A DNA stretch of 64,000 bases from Streptomyces clavuligerus. Its GTDB lineage: Bacteria; Actinomycetota; Actinomycetes; Streptomycetales; Streptomycetaceae. A program made the translations under genes and the position numbers. Within the stretch, counting starts at the first letter, position 1, and each line of letters starts with the position of its first letter. Where the stretch lies: assembly GCF_005519465.1 (NCBI RefSeq), contig NZ_CP027859.1:1550001-1614000 (forward strand), in the 5' to 3' direction. Positions 32,742 to 46,719 of this stretch are shown here, piece by piece. The notes under the pieces are model-generated. The model made no database searches and was not told the origin of the DNA. It saw only the letters and a program-made list of their open reading frames with translations.

Positions 32742-32759
32742 GCAAGTCCGCTGTGTGTG

Positions 32760-32788
32760 TTGACCCTTGCCACACCCACCCTTATGGT
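32760..32788 (+). promoter_or_regulatory. Candidate sigma-70-type promoter for the lyase gene
   Basis: TTGACC (32760-32765), 17 bp, TATGGT (32783-32788): five of six and four of six matches to the -35 and -10 consensus, about 60 bases before the GTG start. Confidence 0.5.
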
Positions 32789-32848
32789 CGCTCACCCCAG
32801 AGGAATCCAGAAGGACGTCTCTCGTTCACATCAGAGAATGGACCTCCT

Positions 32849-34072
32849 GTGCCGATCACCAGAACTCGCCTTGCGCTGCCGGTGGGCGCCCTGGTCGCCG
32901 CCCTCCTCGTCGCCCCCGGAACCCACCGGGCCGACGCCGCACCCGGCGGCGGCCGTCCCCTCCCGCCCGGGCCCGCCGCCCCCGCCCACTTCACGCACCC
33001 CGGCGTCGTGGTCTCCCAACCCCAGCTCGACTTCGCCCGGGGGCGGGTGGCGGCCGCCGCGGAGCCCTGGAAGAGCGCGTTCGACCAGATGACGGGGAGC
33101 GGCTACGCCTCCCTCGACCGCGTCCCCAAACCGCGCGCGGTGGTCGACTGCGGACCGGGATCGAATCCGAACAACGGCTGCACCGACGAGCGTCAGGACG
33201 CTCTCGCCGCCTACACCACGGCCTTGGCCTGGTACATCACCCGCGACGAGCGATACGCGAAGAAGTCCGTCGAGATCATGGACGCCTGGTCGGCCGTGAT
33301 CCAGGACCACACCAACAGCAACGCACGCCTCCAGACCGGCTGGGCGGGCTCCTCCTGGTCCAAGGCCGCCGAGCTGGTCAAGCACACCTACACCGGCGGC
33401 TGGCCGCAGGCCGGACGCTTCGCGACGATGCTGCGCACTGTCTATCTGCCCGAGGTCATCGGTGGCGCGAACGCCAACGGGAACTGGGAGCTGGTGATGA
33501 TGGAGGCCGCTGTCGGCATCTCCGTCCACCTGGAGGACAGGGCGTCGTACGACAAGGCCATCGCCAAGTTCCGTACCCGTGCCGCCGCGTATGTCTACCT
33601 CTCCTCCGACGGCCCGCTGCCCCGCACCGTGCCGAGTCAGAACCTCGACACCCCCGAGAAGATCATCAAGTACTGGTACGGCCAGGAGCGGTTCGTCACC
33701 GGGCTCGCACAGGAGACATGCCGAGACTTCGGGCATACCGGGTGGGGCCTCTCCGCCATGTCGCACATCGCCGAGACCAGCCGCATCCAGGGTGAGGACC
33801 TGTACCGCACCGATATCGGCGAGCGGCTGCGGCACGGGCTCGGCTTTCACGCGAAGTACCAGCTGGGCGAGGCGCCGCCGGACTGGCTGTGCGGCGGTTC
33901 GGTCAAACGCGGCCTGGGCTCGATCACGGAGATCGGCTACACCGCCATGCACCTCCGCCTCGGCTTCGAGATGCCCGACACCCAGCGCCTCAACCAGCAG
34001 AACCGTCCCGCCGGTGCGAACAACTACTTCACCGGCTGGGAGACGCTGACACATGGGGACAATGTGAGCTGA
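32849..34072 (+). CDS. Secreted alginate-lyase-family (PF05426-like) polysaccharide lyase
   Basis: 407 aa from GTG 32849. The signal peptide is clear (TRLALPVGALVAALLVAPG, cleavage near ADA). The alpha-toroid lyase body shows DERQDALAAYTTALAWYITRD, GWAGSSWSKAAELVKHT, NANGNWELVMMEAAVGISVHL and DFGHTGWGLSAMSHIAE, the landmarks of this family. Family members cleave uronic-acid polymers such as alginate by beta-elimination; the real substrate cannot be read from sequence. There is no good Shine-Dalgarno immediately upstream (GAAGGA is ~35 bases away), which leaves some doubt about the start. Followed by a hairpin and short repeats. Confidence 0.85.
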   Translation: MPITRTRLALPVGALVAALLVAPGTHRADAAPGGGRPLPPGPAAPAHFTHPGVVVSQPQLDFARGRVAAAAEPWKSAFDQMTGSGYASLDRVPKPRAVVDCGPGSNPNNGCTDERQDALAAYTTALAWYITRDERYAKKSVEIMDAWSAVIQDHTNSNARLQTGWAGSSWSKAAELVKHTYTGGWPQAGRFATMLRTVYLPEVIGGANANGNWELVMMEAAVGISVHLEDRASYDKAIAKFRTRAAAYVYLSSDGPLPRTVPSQNLDTPEKIIKYWYGQERFVTGLAQETCRDFGHTGWGLSAMSHIAETSRIQGEDLYRTDIGERLRHGLGFHAKYQLGEAPPDWLCGGSVKRGLGSITEIGYTAMHLRLGFEMPDTQRLNQQNRPAGANNYFTGWETLTHGDNVS

Positions 34073-37033: not shown

Positions 37034-37103
37034 CCGCTGGGAGCGGGCGGGGAATTCATCCGGGACATTGACGTAAATCCGGAGCGGCGGCACGCTCCTC
37101 CCC

Positions 37104-38279
37104 ATGCCGAGGAGCGAGCCGACCCCGCTGACCCTCCTGCGCCGCGCCCATGAGGCGCAGGTGCTCGACCTGCTGCGCCGACTCGGCGCGCTGAGCCGTG
37201 CCGAGCTGGCCCGGCGTACCGGCCTGTCGCGTACCGCGCTCTCCTCCATCACCACATCGCTGATCACCCGCGCGCTCGTCGTCACCGTGCCCGCACCGGC
37301 GGAAGGGCCGCGCGGCCGTGGCCGCCCCGTCGGCCTGCTGCGGCTCGACCCCGCCACCGGGCGGTGCGCGGGCGTCGACCTGGGGCGCGTCCGGGTCCGC
37401 GCCGTCGTCGCCAACGCGGCGCACGAGACCATCGCCACGGCCTCCCGCCCCTGCCCGCCCCACGCCTCCTGGCAGCACCGCACGGAGCTGGCCCTGGAAC
37501 TGCTGGACGAACTCCTCGGCGGCGCCGCCCAAGGACTCGAAGGCATCGGGGTCGGAGTCGTCGGCCCGGTCACGGGAGCGGCCGAACGCGACCTGGGCGT
37601 GGCACGCCGCTTCGGCGAGCAGTACGGGGTACCCGTACTGGTCGACAACAACACCCGGCTGGCCGCGCTGGCCGAGACCGTGCACGGGGCAGGCGCGGGC
37701 AGCCGCCACGTCGTGTACGTACGGCTGTCGCACGGCGTCGGCGGCGGCGTGGTGGTCGACGGCAGGCTGCTGCGCGGCGCGGGCGGCACCGCCGGTGAGA
37801 TCGGGCACATCACGGTCGAACCCACGGGGCCGCGCTGCCAGTGCGGCGGCCACGGCTGTCTGGAGCTGTACGCGTCCCTGCCCGCCGTGGCGGCGGCGGG
37901 CGGCCCGGAGAACGACGCCGCGGTGGCGCGCGCCGGCCGGCTCACCGGCCGGATGCTCGCCGGGCTGTGCGCCGCGGTCAATCCGGAGCTGCTGATCGTC
38001 GGCGGGGAACTCGCCCGCTGCGGGGCGCGGCTGCTCACCCCGCTGAGGACGGAGCTCCGGGCCCGTACCCTGTCCGCGGCCCGCGCCGGAGTGCGGGTCG
38101 TCGGCGAGCGGCTCGGTGACGAGGCCGGGGCGCTGGGCGGGATGGTGCTCGTACGCCAGGAGACGCCCGCCCTGTACGGCGCCCCGACGGGGGACGCCGT
38201 GGCGCTGTCCATGGCCGACCGGAACGCCGCGTCCGCCGACGGCTGTTGTACCGGGCCGGTGGCGTCCGGTTCCTGTTGA
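37104..38279 (+). CDS. ROK-family transcriptional regulator (NagC/XylR type)
   Basis: 391 aa. N-terminal winged helix-turn-helix (AQVLDLLRRLGALSRAELARRTGLSRTALSSITTSLI, about residues 18-55), then a ROK sugar-kinase-like domain with VDLGRVRVR, GVGVVGPVTG and the zinc-binding signature from GEIGHITVEPTGP: H235, C245, C247 and C252. ROK repressors usually respond to a sugar or sugar phosphate. The regulator gene precedes an ABC importer, sulfatase and DUF4838 hydrolase, and the 351-bp gap after it is full of repeats, so it probably represses that catabolic operon. Inducer unknown. Confidence 0.9.
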   Translation: MPRSEPTPLTLLRRAHEAQVLDLLRRLGALSRAELARRTGLSRTALSSITTSLITRALVVTVPAPAEGPRGRGRPVGLLRLDPATGRCAGVDLGRVRVRAVVANAAHETIATASRPCPPHASWQHRTELALELLDELLGGAAQGLEGIGVGVVGPVTGAAERDLGVARRFGEQYGVPVLVDNNTRLAALAETVHGAGAGSRHVVYVRLSHGVGGGVVVDGRLLRGAGGTAGEIGHITVEPTGPRCQCGGHGCLELYASLPAVAAAGGPENDAAVARAGRLTGRMLAGLCAAVNPELLIVGGELARCGARLLTPLRTELRARTLSAARAGVRVVGERLGDEAGALGGMVLVRQETPALYGAPTGDAVALSMADRNAASADGCCTGPVASGSC

Positions 38280-38290
38280 ACCTCCCGCCG

Positions 38291-38337
38291 CCGGTCCGGG
38301 ACCTGTTCCACCGTTCCGGTCCGGGACCCGTTCCACC
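38291..38337. repeat. 22-bp direct repeat
   Basis: Copies at 38291-38312 and 38316-38337, identical except at one base; each contains GGTCCGGGACC and GTTCCACC. Immediately downstream of the ROK gene, in the control region of the importer. Confidence 0.75.
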
Positions 38338-38384
38338 CGTTCCAGCGGGCCGCCCGTCCGCAGGAGCCGACCGGGTTCCGGAGC

Positions 38385-38438
38385 GGTCCGGAGCGGACCG
38401 GTCCCTGAAACGGTCCGGAGCCGACCGGTTCCTGGAAC
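38385..38438. repeat. Tandem 27-bp repeat with palindromic cores
   Basis: Two adjacent units (38385-38411 and 38412-38438) match at 24 of 27 bases, each starting GGTCCGGAGC and containing GACCGG. A degenerate third unit precedes them. They lie between the ROK gene and the ABC permease, where operators are expected. The rest of the 38,280-38,630 gap shows no gene. Confidence 0.7.
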
Positions 38439-38630
38439 GGTCCTGGGCGGCGGACGCCCCGCCGCGCCCCCGGTCCGACCGCACGGCACCGGGCGGCGCC
38501 CCGGACTCCGGCGCCCCCGCTCCACGGCCGGACCGCCGTCCGCCGGGCCGCCGTCCGCGGGGCCGATCGCCCCACCTCCCGTCCGACCACCCGCGCACCT
38601 CCCTCCTCAGGACACAGAGGCGACCTCTCC

Positions 38631-39500
38631 ATGCCACGAACCGCGTATTCCTCCCCACTGGCCCCAGGAACACCCCCGCGCCCGGCCGACGACCCACCCG
38701 CCGGGAGATCCGGCGGGAGATCCGGCGGACACCGACCCGTCCCCGGGGCGACGGCCGCGGCCCGGCTGTCGGGTGCCGTCTCCGTCCTCGCCGGAGTCGG
38801 ACTCTGGCACCTGGCCACCGTCCTCGGCGCGGTGGGCGTCCCCGGGCCCGCCCCGGTGCTGGCACGCGGCGCGGAGCTGCTGGCCGACGGCACACTGACC
38901 ACGGACGCGCTGGCCTCGGTACGCCGGGTCCTCACCGGTTTCGCCCTCGGCACCGCCGCCGCGCTGCCCGTCGGCGCGCTGATGGGCTGGTATCCGGTGG
39001 CCCGGGCGCTGCTGGAGCCCTGGGTGCAGTTCTTCCGGATGGTCCCGCCCCTGGCGGTCATCCCGCTGACGATCGTGCTGCTCGGCATCGACGAGACCCC
39101 CAAGATCACCGTGATCTTCCTCGCGGCGTTCCTGTCGACGGCGGTCTCCGTCTTCCAGGGCGTCCTCACGGTCGACCGGACCCTGATCGACGCCGCCCGG
39201 GTGCTCGGCGCCCGCGAGCCGGTGATCTTCGCCCGGGTCGTGGTCCCGGCGACCCTGCCCTTCCTCTTCACCGGCGCCCGGGTCGGCCTCGGAGCATCGT
39301 GGTCGACGCTCGTCGCCGCCGAACTCATCGCCGCGCAACAGGGCCTCGGCTACCGGATGCAACAGGCCCAGCTCTACTACGACCTGGAAACGATCTTCGT
39401 GGGGATTCTCGCTATCGGCTCGCTCGGACTGCTGATGGACCGTCTGCTGATCGCCGCCGAACGCCGGGCGACGGCCTGGCAGGACAGGAGGGAGGCATGA
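38631..39500 (+). CDS. ABC importer permease (SsuC/TauC-like)
   Basis: 289 aa with about six transmembrane segments and the BPD_transp_1 pattern: [37 protein letters not shown] with the EAA-like loop (about residues 180-195). A Gly/Pro-rich cytoplasmic N-terminus of ~45 aa is longer than usual. The SsuC/TauC branch imports sulfonates, taurine, nitrate or related compounds. Its stop overlaps the ATPase start by 4 bases (ATGA). First structural gene of the operon after the ROK regulator. Confidence 0.88.
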
Positions 39501-40303
39501 CCGCCACCCCGCCGCCGCTGATCTCGTTCCGGCACACGGCCAAACACTTCCCCGGGCCCGACGGCGGGTTCACCGCCCTCGGCGGAGTCGACCTGCACAT
39601 CGCCGAAGGCGAGTTCACGGTCCTGGTCGGCCCCTCGGGCTGCGGAAAGTCGACCCTGCTCGGGATCGCCGCCGGCCTGGTCGAGCCCACCGGGGGCGAG
39701 GTCCGGATCGACGGCCGACCCGTCCACGGACCCGGCCCCGACCGGGGGGTGGTCTTCCAGCAGTACGCCCTCTTCCCCTGGCTCACCGTCCGGGGGAACG
39801 TCGAGTTCGGGCTGCGCACCGCCAAGGTGCCACGCGCCGAACGGCGCCGCAGGGCCCAGTACTTCATCGACCTCGTCGGACTGTCCGACACGGCCGACGC
39901 CCTGCCCAAAACGCTGTCCGGCGGGATGAAGCAGCGCTGCGCCATCGCCCGTGCCTACGCCGCCGACCCGCGCATCCTGCTGATGGACGAGCCGTTCGGC
40001 GCGCTCGACTCCCTCACCCGCTCACAGCTCCAGGCACGGCTGCTGGAGATCTGGGAGCGGGAGCGCCGGACCGTCCTGTTCGTCACCCACGATGTCGACG
40101 AGGCGGTGTACCTCGCCACCCGGGTGGTCGTCATGGCCGCCCGCCCCGGCCGGGTCCACCGCGCCATCGACATCGACCTGCCGTCGCCCCGTACCCCGGC
40201 GGTCCGGCTGACCGAGCGGTTCACCGCCCTGCGTACGGAGGTCTGGCGCGCGGTCCATGAACAGGAACCCCGCACCGCGCCGTCCATGGACAGGAAGCAC
40301 TGA
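39497..40303 (+). CDS. ABC importer ATPase (SsuB/TauB-like)
   Basis: 268 aa. Walker [10 protein letters not shown] at residues 45-53, Q-loop in [11 protein letters not shown], signature LSGGM at 140-144, Walker [13 protein letters not shown] at 160-171, and the H-loop THDVDEA. It resembles the nitrate/sulfonate/taurine ATPases. ATG 39497 follows GGAGG and overlaps the permease stop. The stop codon lies inside a 17-bp tandem duplication. Confidence 0.92.
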
Positions 40304-40356
40304 GCCGCAGGAAGCACTGAGCCACAGAGTCCCCGAGCCACAGAGTCCCCGAGCCC
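40291..40356. repeat. Two pairs of tandem repeats at the ATPase stop codon
   Basis: A 17-bp unit (40291-40307, 40308-40324; one mismatch, containing CACTGA) is followed directly by a 16-bp unit (40325-40340, 40341-40356; one mismatch). The first copy ends the ATPase gene. Confidence 0.8.
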
Positions 40357-40412
40357 GCCGTCCCCTGAGCGGGAAACCCCCGTTCCGCACCCCTCCGGAG
40401 AACCGAACCGCG

Positions 40413-41519
40413 ATGTCTCTGTCCTCTGTCTCCCGAATATCCCGCCCCTTCCCGGCGGCCCGGGCCCCCCGGCCGCCGCACCGCCTCCGGTCCCGTCCCC
40501 GTCCCCGCCCCCGGTCCCGCCTCGCCGCCGTCACCGCCGCCCTCGCCGTGCTCACCCTGGCCGGATGCTCCGGCGGTGAAGGCGGCAGCGGCGGCGGTGA
40601 CGGCGGCGGGCGGACCCGTTCGATCGAGTTCGGGTACATCGCCGACTACAACCAGGCCGGTCTGCTCGCCATCGCCCAGAAACGCGGCCTGTGGGCCCGG
40701 AACGGCCTGAACGCCTCGTACAAGGTCTTCACCGACGGCCCCACCCAGATCGCCGCACTCGGCGCGGGCGATCTCGACTTCGGCACCATCGGCCCCGGCG
40801 CGACCTGGCTGCCCGCGTCGGGCCGGGCCACCGTCGTCGCCGTGAACCAGCTCGGCCGGGCGGACCGTGTCGTCGCCCTCCCCGGCAGCGGGATCACCCG
40901 GACCGCCGACCTCAAGGGGAAGAAGATCGCCGTGCCCGAGGGAACCTCCGGCGACATGATCCTCACCCTCGCCCTCGACCGCGCCGGACTGACGAGGGAC
41001 GACGTACGGATCGTCCCCATGACCCCGCCCACCGCCGTGTCCGCGCTGGCCTCCCGCCAGGTGGACGCCGCCGCACTGTGGTACCCGCTGCTCACCACCG
41101 TGGAGAAACGCGTACCCGGTCTGGTGCACCTCGCCGGGAGCGCCGACTTCGCCGACGAGTTCGCCTTCCCCAGCTCCGTCGTGACCGCCCCGGCCACCGC
41201 GCGGAAGGAACGCGCCCTGGTCACCGACGTGACCCGGGTACTCCAGGAGGCCAACGACTACCGGCACCGAAACCCCGGGGAATCGGTCGCCATCACCGCC
41301 GGGTTCCTCCGTCTCGACCCCGGAACCGTGGCCGCCGACGCACGCAACACCCTGCCGCTGTCCACGGCCGACCTGGTCGCGAAGACCGAGGACGGCACCG
41401 TCACCCGCTGGTTCACCGCACTTCAGCGCTTCTTCGTCCGCACCGGAAAGCTCGACGCGGTGACCGACGGCCGGAAGCTCTACACCGGCGATCTCTACAC
41501 CGAGGCGGCGGCCCGATGA
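40413..41519 (+). CDS. ABC substrate-binding lipoprotein (SsuA/NMT1-like)
   Basis: 368 aa. Arg-rich N-terminus, then a lipobox (LTLAGCSGG). The periplasmic-binding fold shows SIEFGYIADYNQAGLLAIAQKRGLWARNGLNASYKVF, the start typical of NMT1/SsuA proteins, and DLKGKKIAVPEGTSGDMIL. It delivers the ligand to the permease. GGAG lies 12 bases upstream of ATG 40413. Its stop overlaps the sulfatase ATG (ATGA), which links import to desulfation. The ligand class (sulfonate or sulfate ester) is inferred. Confidence 0.88.
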   Translation: MSLSSVSRISRPFPAARAPRPPHRLRSRPRPRPRSRLAAVTAALAVLTLAGCSGGEGGSGGGDGGGRTRSIEFGYIADYNQAGLLAIAQKRGLWARNGLNASYKVFTDGPTQIAALGAGDLDFGTIGPGATWLPASGRATVVAVNQLGRADRVVALPGSGITRTADLKGKKIAVPEGTSGDMILTLALDRAGLTRDDVRIVPMTPPTAVSALASRQVDAAALWYPLLTTVEKRVPGLVHLAGSADFADEFAFPSSVVTAPATARKERALVTDVTRVLQEANDYRHRNPGESVAITAGFLRLDPGTVAADARNTLPLSTADLVAKTEDGTVTRWFTALQRFFVRTGKLDAVTDGRKLYTGDLYTEAAAR

Positions 41520-43330
41520 CGACCACACCCCTGCCCGCCCGGACGGCCACGGCCCCCCGCTCCGGCCCCACCGGCTCCGCGCCCCGCCGCAACATCCTCT
41601 TCCTGATGACCGATCAGCACCGCACGGACACCCTCGGCGCCTACGGTGCCCCCGGCGGGCACACTCCGCACCTCGACGCGCTCGCCGCCTCCGGCACCCG
41701 GTTCGACCGCTTCTACACCCCGACCTCCATCTGCACCCCCGCCCGCGCCAGCCTCCTCACCGGCTACGCCCCCTTCCGGCACCGGCTGCTCGCGAACTAC
41801 GAACGCAACGTCGGCTACCGGGAAGACCTCGCCGACGACCAGTTCACCTTCACCGCGCCCCTCGCCGATGCGGGCTACCGGCTCGGCCTCATCGGCAAGT
41901 GGCACACGGGGGTCCGCCGGGTCCCGGCCGACTTCGGATTCGAGGGCCCCTATCTGCCCGGCTGGCACAATCCGGTCACCCACCCCGACTACCTCGCCTA
42001 CCTGGACGCCCACGACCTCCCGCCGTACGCCGTCACCGACCCCGTCCGCACCCGGCTGCCCGGCGGCGGACCCGGCCCGCTCCTCGCCGCCCGGCTGCGG
42101 CAGCCCGTCGAAGCCACCTTCGAGCACTACCTGGCGACGCGGGCGATCGAACTGCTCCACCGCTGGGCCGAGGAGCCCGGGACGGACGGGGAGCACAGGA
42201 CGAACGGGGAGCCCGGGACGGACGAGGGGCACAGGGCGGACGGGGAGCCCGGGGCGAATGGTGAGCACCGGGGGGACACCTCCCCCCGGCCCTTCTTCCT
42301 CGCCGTCCACTTCTTCGGTCCGCACCTGCCCTATCTGCTCCCCGACGCCTACTACGACCTCGTCGACCCCGCCACCGTCGAGCTTCCCGCCTCGCTCGCC
42401 GAGACCTTCGAGGGCAAACCACCCGTCCAGCGCAACTACAGCGCCCTGTGGGGCCATGACAGCCTCACCGAGACCGAGTACCGGGGGCTGATCGCCGCCT
42501 ACCACGGCTATGTCGCCCTCATCGACCTCCAGATCGGCCGAATCCGCCGGGCCGTCGACGAACTCGGGCTCACCGACTCCACCGCCGTCGTCTTCACCGC
42601 CGACCACGGGGAGTTCACCGGTTCCCACCGGATGCACGACAAGGGACCGGCGATGTACGAGGACGTCTACCGCATCCCCGGGCTGCTCCAGGTGCCCGGC
42701 GCGCCCGCCGGTGTCGCCCGGCGGGAGTTCGCCACCCTCACAGATGTCACCGCGACCCTCCTCGACCTGGCCGGATGCGATCCGGCACCCGCCGTGGACG
42801 GCCGCAGCCTGCTGCCGCTCACCGGGGGCGGACCGGCGCCGGAGGACTGGCCGCGGGAAGTCGTCGGCGAGTTCCACGGACACCACTTCCCCTACCCCCA
42901 GCGGATGCTCCGCGACGAGCGGTACAAGATCGTGATCAACCCCGAGTCCGTCTGCGAGCTGTACGACCTCGACCGCGACCCCCATGAGCTGCGCAACGCC
43001 TGGGACGACCCCGCTCTGCGCGATGTCCGGGACCACCTCGTCCACAGGCTCCACCGGCTGCTGTCCGCACGCGGTGACAACTTCCACCACTGGATGGCCG
43101 CCGTGCTCGACGTCGGCGCACCGGCCGGGGACACCTCCCTCGGCTCCTTCGAATCCGCCGCCGGGGCCGCCCGTACCCCCGCCGCCCGGGACCGGGGGCC
43201 GGACCGCGCACCGGACTCCGGCGCCGTACCGGACCCGGCCCGTACCCCCGCCCGCGTCCGGGAACCCCGCACCGGGGAACCCCCCGCCCAGAAAGAAGGA
43301 GAGGACACCCATGTCACCGCGGCCCCATGA
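41516..43330 (+). CDS. Cys-type sulfatase, cytoplasmic
   Basis: 604 aa. Sulfatase fold with ILFLMTDQHRTDT (metal ligands D33, Q34), the formylglycine motif SICTPARASLL (C73-T-P-A-R), KWHTG, FTADHGEFTGSH, and the C-terminal YKIVINPESVCELYDLDRDPHELRNAWDD. C73 must be converted to formylglycine by an FGE, which is not in the window. No signal peptide is present, unlike most glycan sulfatases, so it should act on an imported ester. Residues 220-254 form three near-identical 12-aa repeats (EPGTDGEHRTNG type). An Ala/Arg/Pro-rich C-terminal tail of ~60 aa is also unusual. It overlaps the next gene by 20 bases. Confidence 0.9.
   Translation: MTTTPLPARTATAPRSGPTGSAPRRNILFLMTDQHRTDTLGAYGAPGGHTPHLDALAASGTRFDRFYTPTSICTPARASLLTGYAPFRHRLLANYERNVGYREDLADDQFTFTAPLADAGYRLGLIGKWHTGVRRVPADFGFEGPYLPGWHNPVTHPDYLAYLDAHDLPPYAVTDPVRTRLPGGGPGPLLAARLRQPVEATFEHYLATRAIELLHRWAEEPGTDGEHRTNGEPGTDEGHRADGEPGANGEHRGDTSPRPFFLAVHFFGPHLPYLLPDAYYDLVDPATVELPASLAETFEGKPPVQRNYSALWGHDSLTETEYRGLIAAYHGYVALIDLQIGRIRRAVDELGLTDSTAVVFTADHGEFTGSHRMHDKGPAMYEDVYRIPGLLQVPGAPAGVARREFATLTDVTATLLDLAGCDPAPAVDGRSLLPLTGGGPAPEDWPREVVGEFHGHHFPYPQRMLRDERYKIVINPESVCELYDLDRDPHELRNAWDDPALRDVRDHLVHRLHRLLSARGDNFHHWMAAVLDVGAPAGDTSLGSFESAAGAARTPAARDRGPDRAPDSGAVPDPARTPARVREPRTGEPPAQKEGEDTHVTAAP
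42173..42277 (+). repeat. In-frame 36-bp minisatellite inside the sulfatase gene
   Basis: Units at 42173-42208, 42209-42244 and a shorter 42245-42277 encode EPGTDGEHRTNG, EPGTDEGHRADG and EPGANGEHRGD. They lie in a surface loop between two core strands of the sulfatase. Confidence 0.85.
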
Positions 43331-45638
43331 CCCCGCCACCCGCCCCACCCGGCGGATCGCGCCCCCACCCGGGGCCGCCGCCGCGCGCGTGCCCGGCCCC
43401 GGCCCGCGCCGCAGAACCGTCCTGCGCACGGCGGTGGGCACCGCCGGGGCGACCGCCCTGCTCACCGCCGCCCCCCTCCGCGCGAGCGCCGCGCCCCCGC
43501 CCACCGGACCGTTCGCGGTGGCCGGGAGCCATATCGTCTGGTGGTCCCCGGAACAGGGCACGGACACCGCGGTCGTGGCCTTCGCCGCCGGGGAACTCTC
43601 GCGCTATCTGCGGCACATCACCGGCGGTGGCCCCGGCGCGTTCCCACCGCGCAGGGTGGACCGGCCCGGCCATGGAGTCGCCCTGCTGCCCCCGCCCGCG
43701 GGCCCAGGGGTGCCCGAGGCCCTGGCCGCGGAGGCCGGACGGCTGCTGACGGACCGGGGCGAGGAAGCACATACCGTCCTGGTGACCTCCCCGGGCGCGC
43801 TCACCGCGGGCAACAGCGCGCGGGCCGCCCTGTACGCCGTGTACGCGCTCCTCGAAAGGGCGGGCGTCCGCTTCTTCGCACCCGCCCTCCCCGGGTACGG
43901 GGGCGGCGGCGAGCACGTGCCGCGCGACACCGCCCTCACCCTGCCCGCCACGGCCCTGCTGGAGGAACCCGCCTGGGCCTGGCGGCGCAAATACGTGGAG
44001 GAGGGCACCAGCCACACCCCCGAAGGACTCGTCCACCTCCTGGACTGGATGGCCAAGAACCGGCTCAACACCCTCGTCCACCCCTACGACTACAACCACT
44101 GGGGGCACATCACCTGGGACCGGGTCCGCGCCACCGCCGCCCCCGAGGCCGCCCGGCGCGGCATCCTCGTCGAGGTCGGCGGACACGGATACGAGAGCTT
44201 CCTCCCCCCGGAACGCCACCCGGCCTTCTACACGAGCGGCGCCAACGTCTTCGACGTCCACGACCCCGCCGCCCTCGACACCTATGTCAGGGCCGTCACC
44301 GCCTACCTCACCGAGCGCCCCGAGATCGCCGTCTTCGACTGCTGGCCCCCCGACTCGGCGACCTGGCCCGCCGCCTCCGTCGCCGCGTTCGGCTCGGTCA
44401 CCGACGCCGAGGCCCATGTGGTCAACACCCTGCGCGTGGCCCTCGCCACCACCCTCCCCTCCGTCCGGGTGGAACGCGTCGCCTACGGGGCCGCCATCGC
44501 CCCGCCCACCCCCGGCCGGGGATTCCACCCCCGGGTACTGATCGACTTCGCCCCGTACGAGCGCACCTACCGCCACGCCCTCGACGACCCCGCGTCCGCC
44601 GCCAACGCGCCGCTGGCGTCGCTGCTGCGCTCCTGGGCCGCCACCGCCGAAGGCCCCCTCGCGGTCTACGACTACAACCGCCGCTACCGCTGGCGCTCCC
44701 TGCCCGTACGGCCGCTGCGCGTCCTGGCCGCCGACGCCCGCTTCTACGCGGCGCTCGGCGCCGACGGCCTCGGCTCGTACTCCGAACCCGCCGACTGGCT
44801 GCCCTTCGAGGCGGTCCATCTGTTCTCCGCCCGGCTCGCCCGCGACCCCGGCACCGACCCCGACACCTGGCTGGGGCAGTACCTCGCCGACCGGTTCGGC
44901 CCCGCCGCCCGCCACCTCGCCGACTACTACGCCAGGACCACCGCCGACCCCGACGGATTCTCCGACCCCGGGTACGCCGCCGCCGCCGAGAGCGCCTACC
45001 GGGAGGCCGCCGCCGCGCTCGACCGGGCCCTGGCCGTCCTCGCCGGCCGCCCCGAGCACCTCCTCGTGGCCCGGCTCCGCTCCCATCTGGAACTCGCCCT
45101 GGCCGATGTCGCGATCTCCACGGCCGCCACGGCCGGGGCCCGCGCCACCGCCAGGGCCACCTACCGGACCCTCCTGGAGGAACGCCGCTTCCAGGGCCTG
45201 GTGCTCCAGGACATCCGCGCCGTACAGCGCTGGGGCGGCACCCTCGCCCACCGGGACGGGCACCCGCTCTACCGGCTCCCCGCCCACGCCTCCCTCGTCA
45301 CCGACCGGCTCACGGTGGCCCGGGGCGGCTCCACCACCGTACGGCTGCGCGCCCAGGACATCGACTGGCGCGGCCACACGGTCACCTGGACCGCCGCCTT
45401 CCCCCCGGGCCTGACCCCGTCGGCCACCTCGGGAACCCTCACCCCGGCGGGCCCCGCGGACGGCACCCAGCGCCTGACCCTGACCGCGTCCCCGTCCCTG
45501 GCCACCGGAGCCCACCAGGCGGTCTTCACCTTCGTCTGCGACGGCGGTCTCCCCCTGCCCCCGGCGCGGCTCACGGTCACGGTCGGCACGGCAGGTGGTT
45601 CCGCCGCCCGGACCGGGGAGGAAGCCCCCATGCCATGA
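43311..45638 (+). CDS. Tat-exported DUF4838-like glycoside-hydrolase-fold protein
   Basis: 775 aa. Tat signal PRRRTVLRTAVGTAGATALLTA near residue 32. An N-terminal beta domain (WWSPEQGTDTAVVAFAAGELSRYLRHIT) resembles the accessory domain of GH20/GH67 enzymes. The TIM-barrel-like core shows GLVHLLDWMAKNRLNTLVHPYDYN and WRRKYVEEG; the Tyr-Asp and Cys-Trp pairs (DCWPPDSATWP) are notable. A C-terminal Ig-like domain follows (GLTPSATSGTLTP). DUF4838 proteins are GH-like enzymes of largely unknown specificity. GAAGGAGAGG precedes ATG 43311, which overlaps the sulfatase stop. Extracytoplasmic, so it may release the oligosaccharide that the importer takes up. Inference. Confidence 0.8.
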   Translation: MSPRPHDPATRPTRRIAPPPGAAAARVPGPGPRRRTVLRTAVGTAGATALLTAAPLRASAAPPPTGPFAVAGSHIVWWSPEQGTDTAVVAFAAGELSRYLRHITGGGPGAFPPRRVDRPGHGVALLPPPAGPGVPEALAAEAGRLLTDRGEEAHTVLVTSPGALTAGNSARAALYAVYALLERAGVRFFAPALPGYGGGGEHVPRDTALTLPATALLEEPAWAWRRKYVEEGTSHTPEGLVHLLDWMAKNRLNTLVHPYDYNHWGHITWDRVRATAAPEAARRGILVEVGGHGYESFLPPERHPAFYTSGANVFDVHDPAALDTYVRAVTAYLTERPEIAVFDCWPPDSATWPAASVAAFGSVTDAEAHVVNTLRVALATTLPSVRVERVAYGAAIAPPTPGRGFHPRVLIDFAPYERTYRHALDDPASAANAPLASLLRSWAATAEGPLAVYDYNRRYRWRSLPVRPLRVLAADARFYAALGADGLGSYSEPADWLPFEAVHLFSARLARDPGTDPDTWLGQYLADRFGPAARHLADYYARTTADPDGFSDPGYAAAAESAYREAAAALDRALAVLAGRPEHLLVARLRSHLELALADVAISTAATAGARATARATYRTLLEERRFQGLVLQDIRAVQRWGGTLAHRDGHPLYRLPAHASLVTDRLTVARGGSTTVRLRAQDIDWRGHTVTWTAAFPPGLTPSATSGTLTPAGPADGTQRLTLTASPSLATGAHQAVFTFVCDGGLPLPPARLTVTVGTAGGSAARTGEEAPMP

Positions 45639-45693: not shown

Positions 45694-46719
45694 ATGTGGT
45701 CGTGGATGTCCACCGAGAACGTGGCGGCAGCCGACAGAGCCGACTGGTACCACGATGTGATCTCCCGGACGGTGGCTCCCCACGAGCTGACCGTGACGGA
45801 CCCCTCGGCGTTCCGGGCGCGTTCCGGCGGGATGAGCCTGGGGCGGATCGGGGTGTCGCGCCACTTCCACACGGAGCACAGCTCCCGGCGCACACCGAGG
45901 CTGATCCGGCAGGGCGACCCGGAACACTTCGTGCTGGGTGTGATCACCCACGGGGCGAAGAAGATCTCCCAGCACCGCACCGACACCGTGCTCGGTACGG
46001 GCGACGGTGTCCTCTTCGACACCTCGCACCCCTACGCCGTGGGAACCCCCGGGACCGGGAGTTCGGGAATGACCTTCCTCCACATACCGCGGACGCTGCT
46101 GTCCTTCCACGCCCCCCGGCTCGACACCGTGCTGCCCCAGCGGTTTCCCACCGGTCACGGGCTGGCCGCCATCCTCCGGCACTTCATCGACTCCCTGCAC
46201 ACCCACACCGCGGAATGCACGCCCCAGGAACGCCGGATTCTGGACCGGACGGCCCTGGACCTGGTCACCGGCTTCGTGGCCGAGCAGACGGACACCTGGG
46301 CCGGTGCCCCCGCCGACACCCCCCAGCGCGTCCTCCTGCACCGCGTCGACGCCTTCATCGACGACCACCTCGGCGATCCCCGGCTGGACCCCCGGGCCGT
46401 CGCCGACCACCACCACATCTCGCTGCGCACGCTCCAGGCGCTGTTCCGCACCCGGGAGGAAGGCATCGCCGCCTCCATCAAGCGCCGCCGGTTGGACCGC
46501 TGCCGGGCCGACCTGTCCGCCCCCGGCCAGGCCGGTGTGCCCATCGGCGTCATCGCCGCGCGCTGGGGCTTCGGCCGCCCGGCGGGCTTCAGCCGGGCCT
46601 TCCGCGACACCTACGGCATCTCCCCCCAGGAATACCGGAATCAGCAGGCCGCAGAAGGTGCGCGCAGGGCCAACCAGGTCTGCGCTCCTGGCCAACCCGG
46701 CGGGTCCCGGGGTGCATAG
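45694..46719 (+). CDS. AraC-family transcriptional regulator
   Basis: 341 aa. The N-terminal cupin-like sensor (AraC_binding_2 type: VGVSRHFHTEHSSRRTPRLIRQGDPEHFVLGVITHG) spans about 1-190, and the HTH_18 DNA-binding domain about 225-320 (AVADHHHISLRTLQALFRT, GVIAARWGFGRPAGFSRAFRDTYGISPQEYR). ATG 45694 was chosen; ATG 45706 is possible. It lies 55 bases after the DUF4838 gene on the same strand and might regulate the operon, but the ROK gene is the more obvious regulator. Confidence 0.85.
   Translation: MWSWMSTENVAAADRADWYHDVISRTVAPHELTVTDPSAFRARSGGMSLGRIGVSRHFHTEHSSRRTPRLIRQGDPEHFVLGVITHGAKKISQHRTDTVLGTGDGVLFDTSHPYAVGTPGTGSSGMTFLHIPRTLLSFHAPRLDTVLPQRFPTGHGLAAILRHFIDSLHTHTAECTPQERRILDRTALDLVTGFVAEQTDTWAGAPADTPQRVLLHRVDAFIDDHLGDPRLDPRAVADHHHISLRTLQALFRTREEGIAASIKRRRLDRCRADLSAPGQAGVPIGVIAARWGFGRPAGFSRAFRDTYGISPQEYRNQQAAEGARRANQVCAPGQPGGSRGA

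Follow-up and report, generated by a model that had tools for sequence, protein, structure and literature searches.

A conserved ROK regulator, SsuA-like importer, sulfatase and DUF4838 gene unit on the Streptomyces clavuligerus megaplasmid, with an apparently exchangeable glycosidase and no recognised sulfatase maturase

We analysed a unit of six neighbouring genes in a 64,000-nucleotide stretch of Streptomyces clavuligerus DNA (the window; NZ_CP027859.1, positions 1,550,001 to 1,614,000). The genes encode a ROK-family transcriptional regulator, the three parts of an ATP-binding cassette (ABC) importer, a sulfatase and a DUF4838 protein. The genome comprises two contigs and 8.54 Mb; the window lies on contig C2 (1,795,495 bases), which we take to be megaplasmid pSCL4. 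The operon region was 100% identical over its whole length to two S. clavuligerus plasmid records (1,795,699 and 1,794,824 bases). Comparison with related loci showed that the six genes are one conserved unit on this megaplasmid.

All features are on the forward strand. The ROK gene (37104..38279) encodes a MarR-type helix-turn-helix domain (PF12802) and a ROK domain (PF00480, 141.8 bits). After a gap of 351 bases (38280..38630) come a TauC/SsuC-like permease (38631..39500; PF00528), a TauB/SsuB-like ATPase (39497..40303; PF00005) and a lipoprotein-like substrate-binding protein (SBP) of the SsuA family, for which we used the start at 40413 (40413..41519; the start is unsure, and 40257 is possible). 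They are followed by a leaderless S1-type sulfatase of 604 amino acids (41516..43330) and an apparently exported DUF4838 protein (43311..45638). A preliminary description, made from the sequence alone, had assigned these same functions, and the domain matches agree with it. It had also counted four gene overlaps. Three stand: ATGA between permease and ATPase, ATGA between SBP and sulfatase, and 20 bases between sulfatase and DUF4838. The fourth, between ATPase and SBP, depends on an SBP start at 40257 rather than 40413 and is therefore unsure.

The importer is of the nitrate/taurine/sulfonate type. The SBP scored 194.5 bits against TIGR01728, the SsuA family model (cut-off 163.5), its lipobox was identified by eye, and its relatives in the PDB include SsuA (2x26) and TauA (6ssy). 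The permease matched the NCBIfam models SaoP, TauC and SsuC, and permease and ATPase both matched several families of this type, all under cut-offs.

The sulfatase matched PF00884 with 133.5 bits (cut-off 25) and also PF16347 (SGSH_C). As the preliminary description had stated, it has a formylglycine motif, C73-T-P-A-R (codons at 41732..41746), and by eye its N-terminus lacks a signal peptide; the script-picked sulfatase starts in the other 22 compared cassettes were likewise leaderless. C73TPAR, D33, R77, K128, H130, D363, H364 and K376, the motif and active-site residues of such sulfatases, were kept in 28/28 aligned sequences. The protein was 65-82% identical to 22 chosen homologues. Among its PDB matches an exo-2S-iota-carrageenan sulfatase ranked first, followed by chains named choline-sulfatase and N-acetylglucosamine-6-sulfatase; its best NCBIfam models were arylsulfatase and choline-sulfatase, both below cut-off. 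Between S. clavuligerus and S. inusitatus, dN/dS (the ratio of script-computed dN and dS for this pair) was ~0.20 for the sulfatase, the lowest of the six genes, and 0.25-0.43 for the other five. The window sulfatase carries a repetitive low-complexity insertion (~42170-42280) that was not seen in the other 27 aligned sulfatases. A second Cys-type sulfatase, with CSPTR and a twin-arginine-like N-terminus, is encoded on C2 (1626045-1627004), ~12 kb beyond the window.

The DUF4838 protein scored 49 bits against PF16126 (gathering threshold 26.6); the first pass of a genome-wide PF16126 search did not pick it up. An RR motif and a hydrophobic stretch, judged by eye, are consistent with the export proposed in the preliminary description. 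The AlphaFold2 model (pLDDT 90.1, pTM 0.89) had a fold like those of glycoside hydrolase families GH20, GH84, GH115 and GH67. A single-sequence search of the PDB gave no match at E 0.1, and a profile search of PDB sequences gave weak matches only, the best being N-terminal parts of a beta-N-acetylhexosaminidase and a GH115-type enzyme. The conserved acids of the protein, D348, E388 and E492 among them, are candidate catalytic residues only. S. uncialis, S. tsukubensis and S. amakusaensis encode DUF4838 proteins of 71-76% identity. A table excerpted from PMC9870897 gives the label GH163 to a DUF4838 protein, and a GH163 enzyme cuts GlcNAc-beta1,2-Man (GlcNAc, N-acetylglucosamine) according to an excerpt of PMC10154615. 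Compared with GH163/DUF4838 glycosidases such as the endo-acting enzyme of Bacteroides thetaiotaomicron, the window protein scores just those 49 bits to PF16126. No GH163 chain was recognised among the fold matches listed for the model, which excludes nothing.

A profile of DUF4838 relatives gave 30 loci in named genomes, of which 12 were streptomycete (11 Streptomyces and one Embleya). One of these, L035, begins at the match without upstream flank and was left out, leaving L031-L034 and L036-L042; L089 (the L039 region again) and L067/G050 (a short contig, not extended) were also left out of the counts. The preliminary description had proposed a search for the same gene order in other actinomycete genomes. 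In all 11 streptomycete loci with upstream flank, ROK, permease, ATPase, SBP and sulfatase genes were present within 10 kb. Several of these loci are near-copies of each other, with short tree branches, and they therefore represent fewer than 11 independent cases. Two gene orders were found. S. inusitatus (L031) has the order of the window. In the others ROK is followed by sulfatase-permease-ATPase-SBP-DUF4838, and only in L032 is ROK not divergent. Of the seven Paenibacillus loci, one, L046, has sulfatase-permease-ATPase-SBP-DUF4838, i.e. four core partners without ROK, and another (L049) has importer genes only, ~7 kb away. The view of these genes as one system is thus borne out, the gene content being kept in two orders across streptomycetes and once in Paenibacillus without ROK. 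The link between DUF4838 and the core is strong in streptomycetes and patchy beyond them.

A close relative of the sulfatase, used as query against 101 Streptomyces genomes, found matches in 14 at E 1e-100: that of the window, G070 (the L039 strain, with a DUF4838 cassette) and 12 others, 11 of which were extended (L078-L088). All 11 extended loci lacked DUF4838 and encoded ROK, permease, ATPase, SBP and sulfatase together with a GH43-family protein. The genes of the window served to train the gene caller for the extended loci; its agreement with them is therefore no independent check. An arabinanase-like type of GH43 protein lay directly after the sulfatase in seven loci and a second type was found in five; L082 had both. 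Four of these 12 GH43-family proteins (3/7 of the first type and 1/5 of the second) were scanned with Pfam and showed PF04616, and the others were assigned by clustering. The best PDB matches of one first-type protein were endo-arabinanases, and the second type had one weak PDB match, a secreted arabinofuranosidase. Eight of the 12 had a leader-like start by eye; for the remaining four the called start lay within the protein. All 23 streptomycete cassettes (window + 11 + 11) thus encode either DUF4838 or a GH43-family protein. Further glycoside hydrolases occur as well: GH35 or GH92 in several of the DUF4838 loci, and GH20, GH95 or GH31 in single loci of Paenibacillus.

The core in the window is closer to the GH43-type cassettes than to the other DUF4838 cores in gene order and in its sulfatase, which was 63-65% identical to the former and 53-55% to the latter. 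In the trees of sulfatase and SBP, window and L031 grouped with GH43-type cassettes; a quick permease tree with flagged long branches placed them nearer the DUF4838 cassettes. A constraint placing all DUF4838 cassettes together was not rejected (p-AU 0.29 for sulfatase and 0.28 for SBP), and they formed one clade in 20% and 10%, respectively, of 200 bootstrap trees. DUF4838 may have been recruited twice by different cores; the trees settle neither one joining nor two. From these comparisons, the ROK-importer-sulfatase core looks modular and its glycosidase exchangeable. A decayed-looking cassette was found in G023 (L132; C1:93000-112000), with GH92, a stop-interrupted DUF4838, ROK and a formylglycine-generating enzyme (FGE) whose tblastn pieces fall in two frames; these 19 kb gave no match to sulfatase or importer.

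The cassettes also share a promoter-like element, TTGACG followed by an A/T run. In the window the promoter/operator-like element extends over 37045..37079, with the -35-like TTGACG at 37068-37073, and ends 24 bases before the ROK start. The core TTGACG[AT][AT]A was common to 21/23 cassettes and occurred in 219/42761 random stretches from the same sources, a control that leaves uncorrected the choice of the pattern after the sites were seen. The element lies upstream of ROK or, where the operon is divergent, between the two, and is missing in L032 and L085. Searching the S. clavuligerus genome with a pattern built from the window and L031, and allowing ≤3 mismatches, gave one match, which is the element in the window itself; the reversed control also gave one. 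The flanks of the element were alike within the DUF4838 type and most GH43-type cassettes and least so in L086-L088, whose elements share little beyond TTGACGAAAAT. Extra copies were found before a separate GH43-type gene in L082 (14933, +) and L086 (10977, -) and before the sulfatase in L088 (9834, -). This arrangement is as expected for one regulon, and the extra copies suggest that the genes belong to one.

By eye the element looked like a dyad, and we considered it as a palindromic ROK operator. Its mean symmetry was matched by 777/2000 column permutations and is not significant, so only conservation is claimed for the element. The preliminary description had placed a repeat-rich control region between ROK and permease. 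The repeats are present: a direct repeat of 27 nt in three copies (38363-38443) and three families of two copies each. By-eye comparison revealed no such repeats in the ROK-permease gap of S. inusitatus; a role of the window repeats in control is therefore not established, and 38280-38630 has no support as a conserved operator. The conserved element lies upstream of ROK instead.

From the gene content and its conservation, we consider it probable that the operon is controlled by ROK and serves to scavenge a sulfated glycan or glycoconjugate. The exported DUF4838 protein, acting as a glycoside hydrolase, would free a small sulfated sugar or a sulfated glycoside piece. The SsuA-like lipoprotein, with permease and ATPase, would import this piece, and the cytosolic sulfatase would strip its sulfate for sulfate assimilation, perhaps also serving carbon metabolism. 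Until it binds the sulfated compound that has been imported, ROK would repress the operon from a site overlapping the promoter 5′ of the ROK gene. We infer the enzyme activities, the ligand and the direction of regulation in this scheme. The occurrence of GH43 in sister cassettes speaks against a single sugar, such as GlcNAc, being common to all cassettes.

Several findings weigh against this scheme. The fold matches of the DUF4838 model were about equally close to alpha-glucuronidases and beta-hexosaminidases. The known ligands of the SsuA family are small sulfonates and sulfates rather than sugars. No sugar kinase or sugar-catabolic gene was identified in the operon, and sulfur may thus be the main gain. 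With a 60-bit filter, core genes were found in none of the other five Paenibacillus DUF4838 loci and in none of the 11 remaining DUF4838 loci, several of which are on short contigs; DUF4838 as a family is therefore not tied to the core.

The remaining points against the scheme, and the most surprising part of the analysis, concern maturation of the sulfatase. An FGE gene with CHxSYCNRYR was present in 10/11 fetched DUF4838 cassettes, all except L031, beside ROK in nine and inside the operon in L032; two of these ten FGEs were scanned with Pfam. Five of the 11 GH43-type loci also had an FGE gene. A close FGE match (at least 60% identity) was found in 13/13 other sulfatase-positive Streptomyces genomes. 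Thus, within the 101-genome sample, 13/14 sulfatase-positive genomes had a close FGE, compared with 25/87 others (Fisher p 6.8e-6, ignoring kinship), and the single exception was S. clavuligerus. FGE absence is common in Streptomyces; its absence beside this sulfatase is not. The preliminary description had missed this enzyme, which is a cassette member elsewhere. In the S. clavuligerus genome there was no cassette-type FGE at E 1e-60 and no recognisable FGE. Two PF03781 proteins encoded elsewhere on C2 lacked the Cys motif and matched the cassette FGE over part of its length. One of these, encoded at C2:849340-850146, has HEAT repeats, and FGE matches of 37-42% identity in other Streptomyces genomes were motif-less where checked. 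S. inusitatus likewise had no recognisable FGE, with only a 38% match without the motif; the completeness of its genome is not given, which makes this second case weaker.

The anaerobic sulfatase-maturating enzyme (anSME) gave the same result. No S. clavuligerus protein exceeded the anSME cut-off; the best match scored 107 bits against 349, and the others 24-41 bits. The best match is an FxsB radical SAM protein (L097), which we rejected as an anSME. Thus, a constrained Cys-type sulfatase persists in S. clavuligerus without a recognised maturase, and it cannot be assumed that the enzyme is an active formylglycine sulfatase. The preliminary description had proposed cutting outside, import and desulfation inside, an interpretation that is supported in part. 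The importer, the leaderless sulfatase and the exported hydrolase fit this division; the activity of the last step is not assured. Either another maturase acts on the window sulfatase, or the sulfatase does not use formylglycine. It is a speculative and rather doubtful idea that the S. clavuligerus/S. inusitatus lineage matures Cys-type sulfatases without FGE or anSME while running a modular core whose exchangeable exported DUF4838 or GH43 glycosidases strip different sulfated glycans. In Mycobacterium tuberculosis, the sulfatase activity that remains without FGE has been ascribed to type II and III sulfatases (excerpt of PMC3141025).

The nearest working model for the window operon is the AtsR2 cluster of Bifidobacterium breve. 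ROK, transporter and sulfatase occur together in both, and an outside enzyme frees the sulfated sugar there, as the exported DUF4838 protein may do here. The outside step is the work of BbhII, a GH20 sulfo-beta-GlcNAcase, which is from a species other than that of the AtsR2 cluster. The window differs in having an ABC importer and its own exported DUF4838 protein, with FGE in related cassettes, whereas the AtsR2 cluster has the maturase gene atsB and the window locus has no maturase gene. According to an excerpt of PMC9599254, AtsR2 represses the GlcNAc-6-sulfate cluster, and its effector is GlcNAc-6S, released by a 6-sulfo-beta-GlcNAcase. In a gene table excerpted from PMC6045583, Bbr_0851 is listed as a transport protein for glucose/fructose, and Bbr_0853, an Fe-S oxidoreductase, is given the name atsB. 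Another comparable locus, that of Rhodococcus qingshengii IGTS8, also has a ROK regulator beside a sulfatase operon; that operon includes a TauD dioxygenase, and the excerpt of PMC8557817 names neither importer nor glycosidase there. In the open-licence PMC literature we found no paper pairing DUF4838 with a sulfatase and, judging by the titles and first abstract lines of the papers listed, recognised no account of this cassette, which may be described elsewhere. What appears new in the window operon is thus a variation, by an exchangeable glycosidase, on known ROK-controlled uptake of sulfate esters or sulfated sugars.

The Pseudomonas ats system (atsRBC-atsA) resembles the window in combining an SsuABC-like importer with a cytosolic sulfatase. 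It differs in having neither ROK regulator nor exported glycosidase and in being under sulfur-starvation control. By extension, the operon may scavenge sulfur from small organosulfates: the importer would carry an aryl or alkyl sulfate, which might be a sulfated glycoside's aglycone, and the benefit would lie in the sulfate, not in sugar. The SsuA/TauA-like importer, the arylsulfatase and choline-sulfatase models of the sulfatase and the want of an identified sugar-catabolic gene all agree with such a role. So do strong induction of P. aeruginosa atsA by sulfur starvation (excerpt of PMC12581299) and the R. qingshengii ROK regulator beside the choline-sulfatase/TauD operon, a regulator whose abundance is higher on dibenzothiophene than it is on sulfate (same excerpt of PMC8557817). 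However, pure organosulfate uptake has no need of the glycosidase found in every streptomycete cassette, nor of the extra GH35 and GH92 genes in some of them. We therefore regard this alternative as possible, and as clearly less probable than scavenging of a sulfated glycan.

It is unlikely that the sulfatase of the window lineage is in practice no formylglycine sulfatase, being inactive without FGE or acting on another ester through an unmodified Cys73. The FGE gap in S. clavuligerus and S. inusitatus, the want of an anSME above cut-off in the former, where FxsB came closest, and the repeat insertion not seen in the other aligned sulfatases speak for it. However, C73, R77, K128, H130, D363, H364 and K376 are conserved, and by dN/dS none of the other five genes is as constrained as the sulfatase. 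Chance adjacency of unrelated genes is so improbable that we rule it out, given genes that stay linked in two phyla and in two different orders, a common upstream element, and a locus in G023 where a broken DUF4838 and a frame-split FGE stay with ROK although sulfatase and importer were not found.

Two neighbouring genes lie outside the unit. Directly 3′ of DUF4838 is a gene for an AraC/FeaR-like regulator (45694-46719); an AraC-type regulator gene also lies upstream of the sulfatase gene in Paenibacillus L046. A protein with an alginate-lyase-type domain (PF05426, 40.5 bits) is encoded at 32750-34072, 3 kb upstream of ROK.

These findings have three consequences. The comparison has exposed a lineage in which a Cys-type sulfatase stays under constraint although no maturase for it is recognised. 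If the operon does scavenge a sulfated glycan or glycoconjugate, the DUF4838 proteins of the window clade would gain a concrete biological setting, namely sulfated glycans. The GH43-family enzymes in the sister operons would be predicted to act on sulfated substrates.

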